64,000 bases of DNA from Peptacetobacter hiranonis (GTDB lineage: Bacteria; Bacillota; Clostridia; Peptostreptococcales; Peptostreptococcaceae). Below the pieces are notes generated by a model. That model saw only the letters and a program-made list of their open reading frames with translations. It made no database searches and had not been told where the DNA came from. Below, one piece after another: positions 20,850 through 55,587 of the stretch. Position 1 is the stretch's first letter. Each line of letters begins with the position of its first letter. The stretch covers positions 1,178,001-1,242,000 of the forward strand of contig NZ_CP036523.1 of the NCBI RefSeq assembly GCF_008151785.1, written 5' to 3'. Both the position numbers and the translations under genes were made by a program.

Positions 20850-20878
20850 ATCCTGTTCCTCCTTATGTATTGTAAAAT

Positions 20879-20962
20879 ACATAGAATGGACAACCAAGGA
20901 GGCAGGTTACTTACGGAAATTCCGCGTCCGGACTACCAACCGAACTGTGTTTTTATCTATGT
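20879..20962 (-). promoter_or_regulatory. yjdF-type riboswitch
   Basis: Minus strand: P1 ACATAGA (20956-20962) pairs with TCTATGT (20879-20885). Between them are conserved-looking blocks CGGTTGGTAGTCCGG, hairpin CGGAATTTCCG, then GTAAGTAACCTGCC and CCTTGGTTGTCC. Position (30 nt before yjdF) and size fit the yjdF motif. I assign it by context and structure, not by alignment. Confidence 0.75.
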
Positions 20963-21072
20963 TGTTGAGTATATTTAACTCAATTTTATTATAGTATCTT
21001 TTTATAATAAATTTCAATATGTTTTAAAAAATTAAACGTATCTCTAACTTAGTTTTTTTAAAATTTTCTTTC

Positions 21073-26037: not shown

Positions 26038-26478
26038 TTAAAATTTATCAGGATCTAATCCAGACCATCCTGTTTCTTCCATATTGAGTATTTTTTCAAA
26101 ATCTTCTTTTTCAAGTTCAAAATCTATATCCATATTCTGTTTCATTCTCTCAACAGATGAAGATTTTGGTAGAGGAACTACATCCATCTGAAGTGAAAAT
26201 GCTAAACAAATCTGTGCAACAGACTTTCCATATTTTTCAGCAAGTTTGTTTAAAAGTTTATCTTTGAATACTCTTTCTCTTCCAAGTGGACTCCAAGCTT
26301 CAACTACTATTCCATGCTTTTTATCAAAGTCAACAACATCTTTTTGGATATATCCTGGATGGAATTCTATCTGATTGACCATTGGAACAACTTCACAATT
26401 ATCTAATATATTCTGCATATGGTTATTTAAGAAATTGCTCACACCTATAGCTTTTGTTTTTCCTTCTTTATATATCTG
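26038..26478 (-). pseudogene. Aldo/keto reductase, 3' part of a gene split by an IStron
   Basis: Reads in one frame from about 26478: YKEGKTKAIGVSNF, then the C-terminal half of an aldo/keto reductase with CEVVPMVNQIEFHPGY (substrate pocket), GIVVEAWSPLGR, AQICLAFSLQ, VVPLPKSSS (NADPH phosphate site) and the usual C-terminus. It continues the N-terminal part at 28772-29171 exactly at the point where homologues read EELYKEGK. If the intron splices out, one functional enzyme of about 280 residues would result; if not, the gene is broken. Confidence 0.85.
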
Positions 26479-26768
26479 GTTCTAAAAATATATACAAATG
26501 TACTCATTTTAGATATTTCGCTCTTATTCTATCTTTTGATAGTTTTAAGTCTTGGTTGAGCCAGTTATCTCAATAAAATTTTTATCTCGATTATCCCACA
26601 ACCGTATTTTTTATTTATTTAAAGCATTTTATCTAACCCCCGTCACCGATAAAACATACCCTCTATTTATCAACAGTTGGATAAATACAAAATATATTTG
26701 TGATTAAATAAAATATACTTTTAATCTATTTTCTTTTCTTAATTAATATAAATTTTATTAAATATTAT
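26479..26768 (-). other. IStron right end, expected omega-RNA and 3' splice region
   Basis: Gene-free stretch between the tnpB stop codon and the reductase 3' part. In TnpB elements the guide RNA scaffold lies at this end and its guide is read from the flank; in an IStron the 3' splice site is also here. No specific helix was resolved by eye. Confidence 0.4.
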
Positions 26769-28181
26769 TTACTTTATATCAGCAATTCTACTTTCTAATA
26801 TTTCCTTAACTTTCTTATAACTTGTAAACATCTTTATTTTTTTATCATATTTTCTCTCTAAAATATTTTTACTTGCATTTATATCTGCATGGATTTCTCC
26901 ACAATTATCACAAACAAATGAATCTCCATCTCTTACACCAAATCTTCCGCATTTACTACAGATTTGACTTGTATATGCGGGATTTATATATGTAAATTCA
27001 ATACTATTTAATTTGAATTTGTACTCAAGTCTATCTCTTATGTATCCTTTAATCCATCTCGATAATTTTCTTTTTACAGATTTTGGATATCTATCATCCC
27101 AACTCACAAAATCTAAATTTTCCATTACAACTTCTTTAGGCTTTTCTGACTTTATAAATTCATTGATATTTTTATTGATGTAAGATTTAACTGTTTCATC
27201 GTGTTTATTTTTGTTTTTTCTGTATTTTTTCTTTCCTAAATTATTTTTAAGTATGTTGTCCGCTTTTTTAGTGTTACCTTCTTCGAGGTATTTTCTTCTA
27301 AGTGCGAAAAATCTGTTTCGATTAGCATTTTTATTATTCAATCTTTCAGTTTCTTTACTTAAATAATAATTCAATTTTTCTCCATACAGATTTCCATTTG
27401 ATGTTGCAAGCAAGTATCTATATCCTTTATCTATTCCTATAATATTTTCGTTGTTATTTTCCTTTGATTCCACTTCTAATGGAATATTTATTCTCAATAC
27501 ATTATCTATGATTTTGATTTTAAGTGTTTTGTTGTATTTATTTGAATCCCTCAATTTAATCGGTACTCTTTTTCTTATTTCCATTGAGGATATATAAATA
27601 TAATTTTCATTTAATTTATTTTTTGAATATCTATACAAACCTGTGTCTATTGAAAAAGAATTTATTTTGTTCGTATAAGGAACTTTCCCTTTATATCTTC
27701 TAGTGTATCTTTTTATTAAGTTGTTCAAATATTTAATATTTAAGTTTTTTCCTACAAATTTTTTAGGAATATCAAAGTTTATATTGTTTAATACGTTATA
27801 ATAAAGCTTATTTGCTGATAGTATATAATTTATATAATATCTATCATCAGTAGATAAATGTTCATTATTATAAGCAGCAGTCCTAATTTCATTTTTTGTA
27901 TTAGACCAACCAGACTTTATATTTCCAATTGCATCTTGTAATGCTAATTTCCAATATCTAGCTGGTAATTTCCATTGTTCATAAAACTTTGTACTTACCC
28001 ATGCATCTCTGATTTTTCGAGGTTTTTCAATGATTAAAAGACTTTTTATTCCACTATATCTTGAATATACGTAATTTTTAACATTTTTATATTCTTTTCC
28101 TATTTTTAATAATTCTTCAACCTTATAATCATCAATTTTATAGGAATATTGTTTTACAGTTTTAGTTATTGTCTTTTTCAT
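26769..28181 (-). CDS. tnpB: RNA-guided endonuclease TnpB (IS605 OrfB family)
   Basis: 470 residues, a full-length TnpB. RuvC-I IIGIDKGYRYLLATSNG (catalytic Asp about 245), RuvC-II KEVVMENLDF (Glu about 335), zinc ribbon CSKCG...CDNCG (about 402-423) and RuvC-III DINASKNIL (Asp about 427), so the nuclease site looks intact. N-terminal WED/REC region about 1-235 is basic. TnpB uses an RNA from the element's right end to cut the empty donor site and so keeps the element from being lost. It sits inside a group I intron here. Confidence 0.92.
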   Translation of the reverse strand: MKKTITKTVKQYSYKIDDYKVEELLKIGKEYKNVKNYVYSRYSGIKSLLIIEKPRKIRDAWVSTKFYEQWKLPARYWKLALQDAIGNIKSGWSNTKNEIRTAAYNNEHLSTDDRYYINYILSANKLYYNVLNNINFDIPKKFVGKNLNIKYLNNLIKRYTRRYKGKVPYTNKINSFSIDTGLYRYSKNKLNENYIYISSMEIRKRVPIKLRDSNKYNKTLKIKIIDNVLRINIPLEVESKENNNENIIGIDKGYRYLLATSNGNLYGEKLNYYLSKETERLNNKNANRNRFFALRRKYLEEGNTKKADNILKNNLGKKKYRKNKNKHDETVKSYINKNINEFIKSEKPKEVVMENLDFVSWDDRYPKSVKRKLSRWIKGYIRDRLEYKFKLNSIEFTYINPAYTSQICSKCGRFGVRDGDSFVCDNCGEIHADINASKNILERKYDKKIKMFTSYKKVKEILESRIADIK

Positions 28182-28772
28182 TTACCTCACCTCGATTCTA
28201 TAACAAATTTATCTTTCTAATTGTATTATATACTAATCGAAGTTATATTATACAAATAATATAAAAATTTTTTTAAGTTTTTAAATAAATAAAAAATACG
28301 GTCGTTATATCTAAAATACATCCGTATATATTTTTAGAGTGTTCAATCGGAATCGCTACTTTCCAATCAGTTCTCTTATGAACTTCTTAATGTTTCCATT
28401 AAGCACAGACTATATCACCATCTAATTTTTTAGATGCTCCCCATTTCCACCACCAATAGCTTGTGATGTACGGCATTTGCCTAGTCGTTGAACCTTATCC
28501 TGTTCGGATCTTGGCTGCTGATTATCCATTATTAAAGCACTTAGGATTTAACCTTATGCTATCTAGTTAATTTTTTCTGCTTTCGCAACATTCACGCTTG
28601 AATATTTTTCAATTCTACATTGTAGTTTAACTAGCTTTAGGAACTTCCAGCAATTAAAGGAGTTTTGGGCGATTTCTCGCCTCTCTACACTCGTTATGAA
28701 TGTAGGGAGCTTTTTTGTAAAAATATATTTGTCTATATATGTATATTTTTGACTATATTTTTAACAACTATA
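28182..28772 (-). ncRNA. Group I intron ribozyme core of the IStron
   Basis: Minus-strand core features: AATTGCTGGAA (P4-like, about 28650), AATCAGCAGCCAAG, then GGTTCAACGACTA at about 28480-28493 pairing with TAGTC in ATATAGTCTGT at 28404-28415, the P7 helix of group I introns. CAACTA/TAGTTG across the 5' junction (about 28763-28776) could be P1. The region up to tnpB (28182-28400) would be P8/P9 and peripheral parts. Splicing would rejoin the reductase reading frame. Confidence 0.8.
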
Positions 28773-29171
28773 TAGTTGCTCCTCAAAAGCCTTCCATGTT
28801 TCAATATCTAGCTTTTTCCAATCTGATTCAGCGTCAGGTCTTGGCCAATGTATAAGTAGCAAGTCAACATAGTCCATATCTAATTTTTCTAATGACTCTT
28901 CAAATGACTTCTTAGCTCCTTCATATCCCATGCAACTTTTCCAAACTTTTGTAGTTACGAAAAACTCTTCTCTAGGAATTCCAGATTTTTTAATGGCTTT
29001 TCCCAAAGCTTCTTCTGTATTGTAAAAAGCTGCTGTATCAAAATGTCTATATCCAACATTTATAGCATCTAATATTATCTGAACATCATCGCCTTCATTT
29101 ACTTTAAATGTTCCAAATGCTAGGTTTGGCATTTTTACTCCATTGCTTAAAACTGTGTACTCTTTTTTCAT
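28761..29171 (-). pseudogene. Aldo/keto reductase, 5' part of a gene split by an IStron
   Basis: ATG at 29171 after AAAGGAG. KKEYTVLSNGVKMPNLAFGTF, then YRHFDTAAFYNTEEALG (catalytic Asp about 47 and Tyr about 52), TTKVWKSCMG (Lys about 82) and LLLIHWPRP (His about 113): the full catalytic tetrad lies in this part. Native coding ends near 28777 after ETWKAFEE; the last few codons before the stop are IStron sequence. Expected intact length about 280, matching the family. Confidence 0.87.
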
Positions 29172-41064: not shown

Positions 41065-41107
41065 AAAAAAGCTGATGGTTTCTGCGTGGTTGCAGAAGTC
41101 ATCAGCT
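41065..41107 (-). terminator. Riboswitch-controlled terminator
   Basis: AGCTGATG pairs with CATCAGCT, with an inner TTCTGC/GCAGAA helix, then TTTTTTGC on the minus strand, about 30 nt before the antiporter start. Its 5' arm is part of the aptamer, as expected for an expression platform. Confidence 0.85.
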
Positions 41108-41152
41108 CGATAAGCGGTTTAGGTTTCCCAAGGGAGACATTCATTCCCTAGT
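41090..41152 (-). promoter_or_regulatory. Fluoride riboswitch (crcB motif)
   Basis: Minus strand: AGGGAATGAATGTCTCCC (P1 region with pseudoknot loop), CCTAAACCGC, then GAGCTGATGACTTCTGC. These match the order and wording of the fluoride aptamer consensus (GGxAUGxxGUxxxCC, AAACCGC, GCUGAUGACUxCU). Located about 60 nt upstream of a cation:proton antiporter and fused to a terminator, so fluoride should allow read-through. Confidence 0.88.
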
Positions 41153-41242
41153 TGTATTTTGTATATTTATAATTTATATTATTTTAGTTGAAAAAGCAAG
41201 AAATATTTTAATGATATTTTTATAATTTAGTTGCATACATGA

Positions 41243-55281: not shown

Positions 55282-55457
55282 ATATTTAAATCGTATATAA
55301 CTAATAACATTAAATATTATATCACTAAAAATATTACTTTTCAAAAAAATTTCCAACACTTTCATTCATTTTCCAACATCAAAACTTCTACACAATTGAA
55401 AAAAACTATTTTCTATGCTATCATTTAATTAGTTGAATTTTTAAAATAATTTAAAAT

Positions 55458-55539
55458 CAAGCAGGGGAGCTTTTTCGGCTGAGAGTAGGTAAAACCTAGA
55501 CCCTTAACCTGATTTGGATAATGCCAACGTAGGGAGAAG
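55458..55539 (+). promoter_or_regulatory. TPP riboswitch
   Basis: Classic THI box: CAGGGGAGC, GGCTGAGAGTAGG, GACCCTTAACCTGATTTGG, ATAATGCCAACGTAGGGA. Followed by a terminator hairpin before thiM, so thiamine pyrophosphate should stop transcription of thiMED. Confidence 0.97.
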
Positions 55540-55550
55540 ATAAGATATCA

Positions 55551-55587
55551 AACACGAGCCTTTGTTGGTTTCGTGTTTTTTTATTTT
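55551..55587 (+). terminator. TPP riboswitch terminator
   Basis: AACACGA pairs with TCGTGTT and is followed by TTTTTTATTTTT, just after the aptamer. Confidence 0.9.

Follow-up and report, generated by a model that had tools for sequence, protein, structure and literature searches.

In the genome of Peptacetobacter hiranonis, a gene for an aldo/keto reductase is interrupted by an IStron, which consists of a group I intron enclosing an intact tnpB gene and lacks the transposase gene tnpA. The gene was identified in a stretch of 64,000 nucleotides (NZ_CP036523.1, positions 1,178,001 to 1,242,000 of the forward strand), referred to here as the window, which corresponds to C1:1178001-1242000 of a host genome consisting of one contig of 2,521,899 bp. 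The explanation favored here, with a probability of about 0.82, is that the element belongs to a TnpB-only lineage nearest to CsISt1, that splicing restores the reading frame or the Shine-Dalgarno sequence at its insertion sites, and that TnpB is responsible for its retention. Since it contains five full copies, and neither Y1 nor IS607 tnpA was identified, the genome offers a natural system for the multiplication of IStrons without tnpA, a question raised in the 2014 survey by Tourasse et al. (PMC4227781).

The element comprises 2303 bp on the minus strand. For the interrupted gene, the following features were assigned (all positions are those of the window).

26476 to 28778, minus strand: entire IStron (alignment of six genomic copies; paralogous empty site for the insertion of a relative)
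28779 to 29171, minus strand: 5' exon, N-terminal part of the aldo/keto reductase (PF00248, 3.1e-27; joined frame)
26038 to 26475, minus strand: 3' exon, C-terminal part of the aldo/keto reductase (PF00248, 3e-14; joined frame)
28779 to 28782, minus strand: target motif GGAG, directly 5' of the element, the presumed target-adjacent motif of TnpB and complementary to the intron guide (6/6 own copies; loci of relatives)

As called, the reductase is represented by two separate reading frames at 28761-29171 and 26038-26442, both on the minus strand and both matching PF00248. Fusion of the two parts at 28779|26475 results in one frame of 276 amino acids with EEIYKEGK at the junction, the predicted joined sequence being GAGGAG|ATATATAAAG, i.e. 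GAGGAG|ATATAT. The fused protein is 43% identical to an intact relative (locus L083), with an ungapped alignment at the junction and a gap a few residues upstream; no gap at the junction was found with solved homologues like YvgN (3d3f). A joined frame had been anticipated in the original prediction, which was made from the DNA letters alone, and this part is borne out by the homologues, but the local residues are not the EELYKEGK expected there.

The ends were determined with the help of other copies, a search that had been proposed together with the prediction. Five full copies at different sites and one deleted copy were identified in the genome, and these fixed both the ends and the target GGAG. 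In the alignment of the six copies, the common block starts with CAA(C/T)TATATAG and ends with TTTTTAGAACCAG, and GGAG precedes the block in all six. It was shown that the insertion lies exactly 3' of GGAG, without target duplication. The ends originally given, 26473 and 28775, were therefore off by 3 bp; when worked by hand, fusion at those positions is also in frame, but reads EEQYKEGK. The AG common to GG[AG]C... and CC[AG] leaves the boundary free to shift by two bases. Retention of the first intron base, however, would give GAG GAG CAT ATA TAA with a stop codon, and the frame therefore points to a cut after the G.

An independent check was provided by a relative from a different family within the order (locus L078, genome G154), where the insertion is present in the first of two tandem genes of AMP-binding type (named by eye). 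The joined flanks give an ungapped alignment of 118 bp with the second gene, which is intact; 109 of the 118 positions are identical, and this confirms the ends for this insertion. Hathewaya, Clostridium and Oceanirhabdus harbor relatives that share these ends (GGAG|C...CCAG|), and the P. hominis record NZ_SGJB01000010.1 bears a TnpB locus with its right flank. GGAG was present at 10 distinct loci of relatives with a search pattern that did not demand it, and 12 complete elements were collected with a pattern that did. In all 12, out of 14 tried, a continuous sense frame crosses the junction and, in 11 of them, extends for 21 codons or more to either side; in L112 the insertion is located six codons ahead of the stop. 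All 18 complete insertions (6 own, 12 from relatives) lie in sense orientation in a gene or leader. Not counted among the 12 were L104, L105, L106, L107, L108 and L114, which have no intron match, and L111 and L113, which have no right end in the stretch; a CAG-type right end was not seen in L106 and L107 and is doubtful in L108.

These relatives derive from an alignment-based genome scan for TnpB, which gave 18 loci, with 2 in viral contigs. A scan with a single protein gave 107 pattern matches, none of which was confirmed, and the plasmid and phage collections contained only distant TnpBs with less than 60% identity (352 and 26 records). The contig of the C. rectalis element (L098/L115) is also listed as viral, with length and range in agreement, and L116 is located in a viral contig, inside a gene resembling a phage portal gene by eye. 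In L098, L116 and L078, an antisense frame of 48-52 amino acids was identified between intron and tnpB; it matches the ribbon-helix-helix family PF07878 in L078, is similar by eye in L098, and was not found in the own copies. In another genome of the genus (L064, G033:C2), an intron and the start of a TnpB apparently lie within a frame resembling peptidyl-tRNA hydrolase, as named by eye.

The intron was identified by a covariance model, designated R1 (alignment A2), which covers 116 core positions; of the 345 genomes of the order, 51 contain a match to it. The following parts were assigned.

28408 to 28523, minus strand: group I catalytic core, P4' to P7' with P6, P7.1, P7.2 and P8 (model R1 and covariation)
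28482 to 28486, minus strand: 5' strand of P7, GACTA (sequence and model)
28408 to 28412, minus strand: 3' strand of P7, TAGTC (sequence and model)
28339 to 28407, minus strand: hairpins P9, P9.1 and P9.2, ending in GAACAC (by eye and fold; motif listed for IStrons, PMC4227781)
28706 to 28710, minus strand: internal guide sequence GCUCC, the complement of GGAG and the first intron base (17/17 complete elements)

Both strands of P7 are located where they had been predicted, at about 28485 and 28410. In 34 matches, 31 of them distinct, 94.0% of the pair cells of the core are standard pairs and 20 of 27 pairs have changed on both sides; with the pairing partners shifted by 1-3 columns, only 33.5-46.1% of the cells are paired. 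The alignment was fitted to R1 itself, which gives these pairing figures some advantage. The weak spots are the last pairs of P8, which are poor, and P7, which is almost invariant, with 4 of 5 pairs never varying. With R1, the core of the window copy scores equally to those of the other copies. The guide GCUCC is present in 5 own elements and 12 others. The order of P7.1 and P7.2 between P7 and P3', followed by P9, P9.1, P9.2 and GAACAC, fits the IStron layout, which was described as type IA2 (PMC4227781). The ORF (open reading frame) expected in IStrons after P9.2, behind GAACNN, is found here as well, with GAACAC at 28339-28344 and then tnpB.

For the remainder of the element, the following features were identified.

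26769 to 28181, minus strand: tnpB, 470 amino acids (open frame; D251, E354, D433 and the four cysteines of the zinc ribbon unchanged throughout an alignment of six sequences)
28307 to 28338, minus strand: outer 5' AU-rich inverted repeat (duplex with the right end, -34.7 kcal/mol, z -9.7)
28280 to 28301, minus strand: inner 5' inverted repeat CCGTATTTTTTATTTATTTAAA (sequence)
26602 to 26623, minus strand: inner 3' inverted repeat (sequence)
26482 to 26516, minus strand: outer 3' AU-rich inverted repeat, which alternatively closes a local hairpin (duplex computation)
26476 to 26605, minus strand: conserved right end, candidate scaffold of the omega-RNA (TnpB guide RNA) and 3' domain of the intron, ending in TTTTTAGAACCAG (alignment A6, hairpin covariation)

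TnpB matches the NCBIfam family guided_TnpB with 106.6 bits (cut-off 100) and Pfam PF07282. Together with the covariation under R1 and the two PF00248 halves, this substantiates what the original prediction had proposed, an IStron with an intact TnpB in an interrupted reductase gene. In an alignment of four own copies and two relatives, D251, E354, D433, C408, C411, C424 and C427 are invariant; by their motifs, we take the three acidic residues to be the RuvC triad and the cysteines to be the zinc ribbon. The ratio of nonsynonymous to synonymous substitution rates of tnpB is 0.08-0.15 in nine of the ten pairs of own copies, and in the tenth pair (c424 and c416) the gene is identical, the entire elements being 99.65% identical. 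By these comparisons tnpB is under purifying selection; the low ratios and the identical pair thus make both selection and recent spread visible.

Inverted repeats surround the gene region with duplex z values of -5.1 to -11.9 in 15 of 17 elements; the 5' repeat of L100 and L109 could not be located. The end TTTTTAGAACCAG is common to 14 right ends, two of them own. Compensatory changes were identified in a hairpin of the right end, namely CTATC/GATAG, CCACC/GGTGT (with the outermost pair broken) and CTGAT/GTCAG in P. hominis, L116 being misaligned at this hairpin; the five outer pairs of the terminal stem are almost invariant. Hairpin and stem are consistent with a TnpB guide scaffold, without proving it.

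The six own copies differ in what they interrupt. The window copy lies in the reductase codons GAG GAG, and c1034 lies in frame in the final codons of a TetR-type frame (named by eye). Upstream of dnaE, c424 is inserted at AGGAG^GTGGACGAATG; c193 is found at AGGAG^GGATTCATATG upstream of a small membrane-type frame, and c416 at AGGAG^GTAAACTTTTATG upstream of a transporter-like frame (both by eye). The site of c1154, from which most of tnpB is deleted, is GGGAG^GTGAAGGAAGAATG, which belongs in frame to the end of a gene and at the same time to the leader of the gene that follows. A ribosome-binding site is accordingly split (AGGAG^G or GGGAG^G) by four of the six copies, one of the four being also within a reading frame. 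The P. hominis copy, with an ATG 7 bases past its end, was excluded from this count since only its 3' flank is on the contig. An insert of 36 nucleotides was observed in the P9.1 loop of c416 (L029).

DnaE is essential in Bacillus subtilis. The dnaE gene downstream of c424 is the sole dnaE-type match in the genome, the other DNA_pol3_alpha frame, with 1443 amino acids, being PolC-like by size. The dnaE start was located in 9 of 13 loci including the own one, with four relatives unreadable by the script, and 7 of the 8 readable relatives have a Shine-Dalgarno sequence at the same place of the dnaE leader (by eye), for example AGGAGGTGATGTAATG. A promoter-like site was noted just upstream of the dnaE insertion; such sites are no more common there than by chance. 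With a generic anti-Shine-Dalgarno sequence of the 16S RNA, the duplex energies computed for the four unspliced sites are -9.5, -6.3, -6.2 and -10.5 kcal/mol, versus -14.9, -11.7, -11.6 and -16.1 kcal/mol for the joined sites in the same order, a gain of 5.4-5.6. The unspliced RNA retains a weaker ribosome-binding site because the element terminates in AG. Exon joining is thus calculated to strengthen rather than create the ribosome-binding site.

In IStrons, splicing and the TnpB guide RNA compete at the right end; what was observed for the present family is the conservation of RNA elements in this region. For the TnpB-only IStron proposed here, a host transcript containing the element in sense would fold so as to bring the intron's GCUCC into pairing with the exonic GGAG on the 5' side. 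Cleavage by the intron would then take place after the G of GGAG and after the terminal G of CCAG, and joining of the exons would restore the reading frame for the window copy or the Shine-Dalgarno sequence for other copies. Some of the RNA would be kept as guide RNA of TnpB, with the downstream exon as the guide. Restored empty sites would be cut by TnpB beside GGAG, and repair from the sister copy would keep the element. GGAG would thereby serve splicing, TnpB and insertion together.

Several observations speak against this mechanism or limit its support. Splicing, guide RNA formation and cleavage are all inferred from sequence. As their first intron base, 16 of 17 elements have C and only L116 has U, so that a C-G pair replaces the usual U-G pair at the 5' splice site; this is not decisive, because group B IStrons also splice after G, and for BcISt1 the cut after G was demonstrated (PMC4227781). 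In the minimum-energy fold of 491 nucleotides of the window copy (z -5.55), the exon GGAG is paired locally and not with the guide. Rfam did not recognize an intron in the region, although E values as high as 10 were admitted. Among 11 loci for which R1 predicts an intron, however, RF00028 was called in only one (L061), and the ten missed loci include two of the genus with 4-Mb genomes and also one with a c-di-GMP-II (cyclic di-GMP) riboswitch; the negative Rfam result is uninformative, since 10 of 11 R1 loci were missed. For the local hairpin at the right end, the energy does not surpass that of shuffled sequences at any strict level in 15 of 15 elements (z -2.5 to +0.1). Finally, the weaker site in the unspliced RNA means that expression of dnaE alone would not prove splicing. 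The right-end hairpin had also been considered as a switch for the guide RNA, an idea which the shuffle test did not support and which is kept as a conjecture only.

With respect to the spread of the copies, the lack of tnpA had been predicted for the locus and extends to the whole genome, in which neither a Y1 transposase nor an IS607 tnpA above the cut-off was found. Three serine recombinases of PF00239 (556, 539 and 234 amino acids) were considered as tnpA, and none passes the IS607 cut-off; in the 234-residue protein the catalytic domain comes first, unlike in IS607. The alternative of the original prediction, an element either stranded or moved in trans, is answered in part: an isolated stranded copy is at variance with five full copies, two with identical tnpB, and for movement in trans the evidence points neither way. 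That the copies were spread by an IS607-type tnpA in trans, which was later lost from the genome, has about an even chance. An IS607 tnpA over the cut-off is present in 4 of 10 genomes containing the family, at seven loci. In L119 (C. tarantellae), tnpA is directly preceded on its own strand by a weak group I match of 38.9 bits, and L052 (G024) has a group I intron immediately ahead of a tnpA-like frame, which is interrupted, and a tnpB-like frame, so that tnpA-bearing IStrons apparently exist in related hosts. IS607 serine transposases use a dinucleotide crossover, which the AG common to both ends of the element resembles. On the other hand, P. hominis has no IS607 tnpA match whatsoever, as the own genome has none over the cut-off, and at five of the seven tnpA loci, which were inspected (L117-L120, L126), the paired ends of the family were not found; a TnpB-like frame adjoins tnpA in four of these, except L120, and stray single end motifs occur in L117 and L126, never as a pair. 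No frame of at least 60 amino acids was found upstream of tnpB in 14 of 17 elements, those with a tnpB called by the script; no tnpB frame longer than 300 amino acids was called in L112, L109 and L110. Ten genomes were searched for Y1, and all 9 apart from the own one have it over the cut-off, including P. hominis, where it contains a stop. The 2014 survey already argued for IStron spread without ORF A (PMC4227781), and the present genome is a further and cleaner case.

Insertion into Shine-Dalgarno sequences may be a by-product of the GGAG target, without any preference, an explanation whose chances are slightly short of even. Among 273 GGAG sites of the window, 47 are at Shine-Dalgarno positions, 157 in sense in genes, 42 antisense and 27 elsewhere, as counted with an ad hoc gene caller in this one 64-kb window. 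The four of six copies exceed this background, with a tail p of 0.0098, or 0.028 against the sense sites alone. The 12 complete insertions of other species cross an open frame. The excess is modest, and the motif alone could explain the sites. Whatever its cause, the change from -6.2 to -10.5 into -11.6 to -16.1 kcal/mol on joining implies that splicing should matter at the landing site. What is new, as read from the sequence, is that the target GGAG is the core of the Shine-Dalgarno sequence and that the guide GCUCC resembles the anti-Shine-Dalgarno sequence. It is conceivable, though we consider it unlikely, that the guide acts as an anti-Shine-Dalgarno mimic by which the element settles in ribosome-binding sites, that host genes, the only dnaE among them, need the ribozyme to rebuild AGGAGGTG for their translation, that TnpB and intron share GGAG as recognition motif, and that spread without an encoded transposase occurs via TnpB-driven repair or reverse-splicing of intron RNA into Shine-Dalgarno sites. 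Apart from this conjecture, the genome also offers a natural system for the question whether a selfish ribozyme can occupy the ribosome-binding site of a gene for a DNA polymerase in such a way that full translation of the gene comes to require splicing, the dnaE copy making splicing directly accessible to experiment.

It is quite improbable that the intron is dead or inefficient here, with a disrupted reductase whose frames are open only through recent insertion: the two other genomes of the genus contain no match to the reductase with an E value of 1e-20 or below, so that selection on the exons is not measurable, but the first 600 bases of the window copy are 99.7% identical to c1154, its core scores like the others, and the sense orientation in gene or leader holds for 18 of 18 insertions.

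A further group I intron match to R1 (L081, G000:C1:62929-63052, minus strand, 64.6 bits) was identified in the genome. In Clostridium sp. KNHs214 (G348), five frames of 57 amino acids, each at a different place, have matches to the IS607 tnpA model that are confined to its positions 1-53. In the window, Rfam riboswitches were called for azaaromatic compounds (yjdF, 20870-20966), fluoride (41086-41157) and thiamine pyrophosphate (55453-55552).

Among known systems, the CboIStron, an IS607-family IStron reportedly published in Science in 2024, is said to balance splicing and guide RNA and serves as a model for their competition. With CdISt1 and the group A IStrons, the element shares the group I intron, TnpB and the lack of target duplication; it differs from them in that they have a TTGAT-type target and are of the IS605 type. 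The same genome contains another group I intron, distinct from the present one, with a TnpB-like frame of 415 amino acids behind it (L031, G000:C1:2257000-2263000; core L031:2785-2905, minus strand). This unit is CdISt1-like, its type not being assigned. Species in which both IStron groups occur together were not reported in the 2014 survey (PMC4227781).

The group B IStrons (BcISt1, CbISt1-4, SrISt1 and LsISt1), according to the same survey, share P7.1 and P7.2, a 5' exon ending in G, long AU-rich inverted repeats and ORF B within the intron. They differ in having a GG-ending target and a CGG 3' end, compared to GGAG and CCAG here, and in the first intron base; ORF A was not found in the elements read here. 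The main text of the survey does not mention Shine-Dalgarno, ribosome binding or start codons (PMC4227781). A literature search for IStrons and Shine-Dalgarno sequences gave one review, in the available part of which the two topics are unrelated (PMC3073962), a weak negative since subscription papers were mostly outside its scope; a search for hiranonis and group I introns gave none. In the c-di-GMP-II allosteric group I ribozyme of C. difficile, splicing of the 5' leader likewise alters the access to the ribosome-binding site (PMC3984707). That ribozyme is a host element controlled by a riboswitch, for which the text available describes neither TnpB nor mobile spread.

By description, the nearest element is CsISt1 of Clostridium sporogenes, which is inserted after AG, ends in CAG, contains only ORF B and has 2369 bp (PMC4227781, Tourasse et al. 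2014). The AG target, the CAG end, ORF B alone and a size of about 2.4 kb are found here as well, a likeness at the level of description, and no C. sporogenes record is among the 18 TnpB loci. In the survey, CsISt1 is listed with one copy, whereas the P. hiranonis genome contains five full copies.

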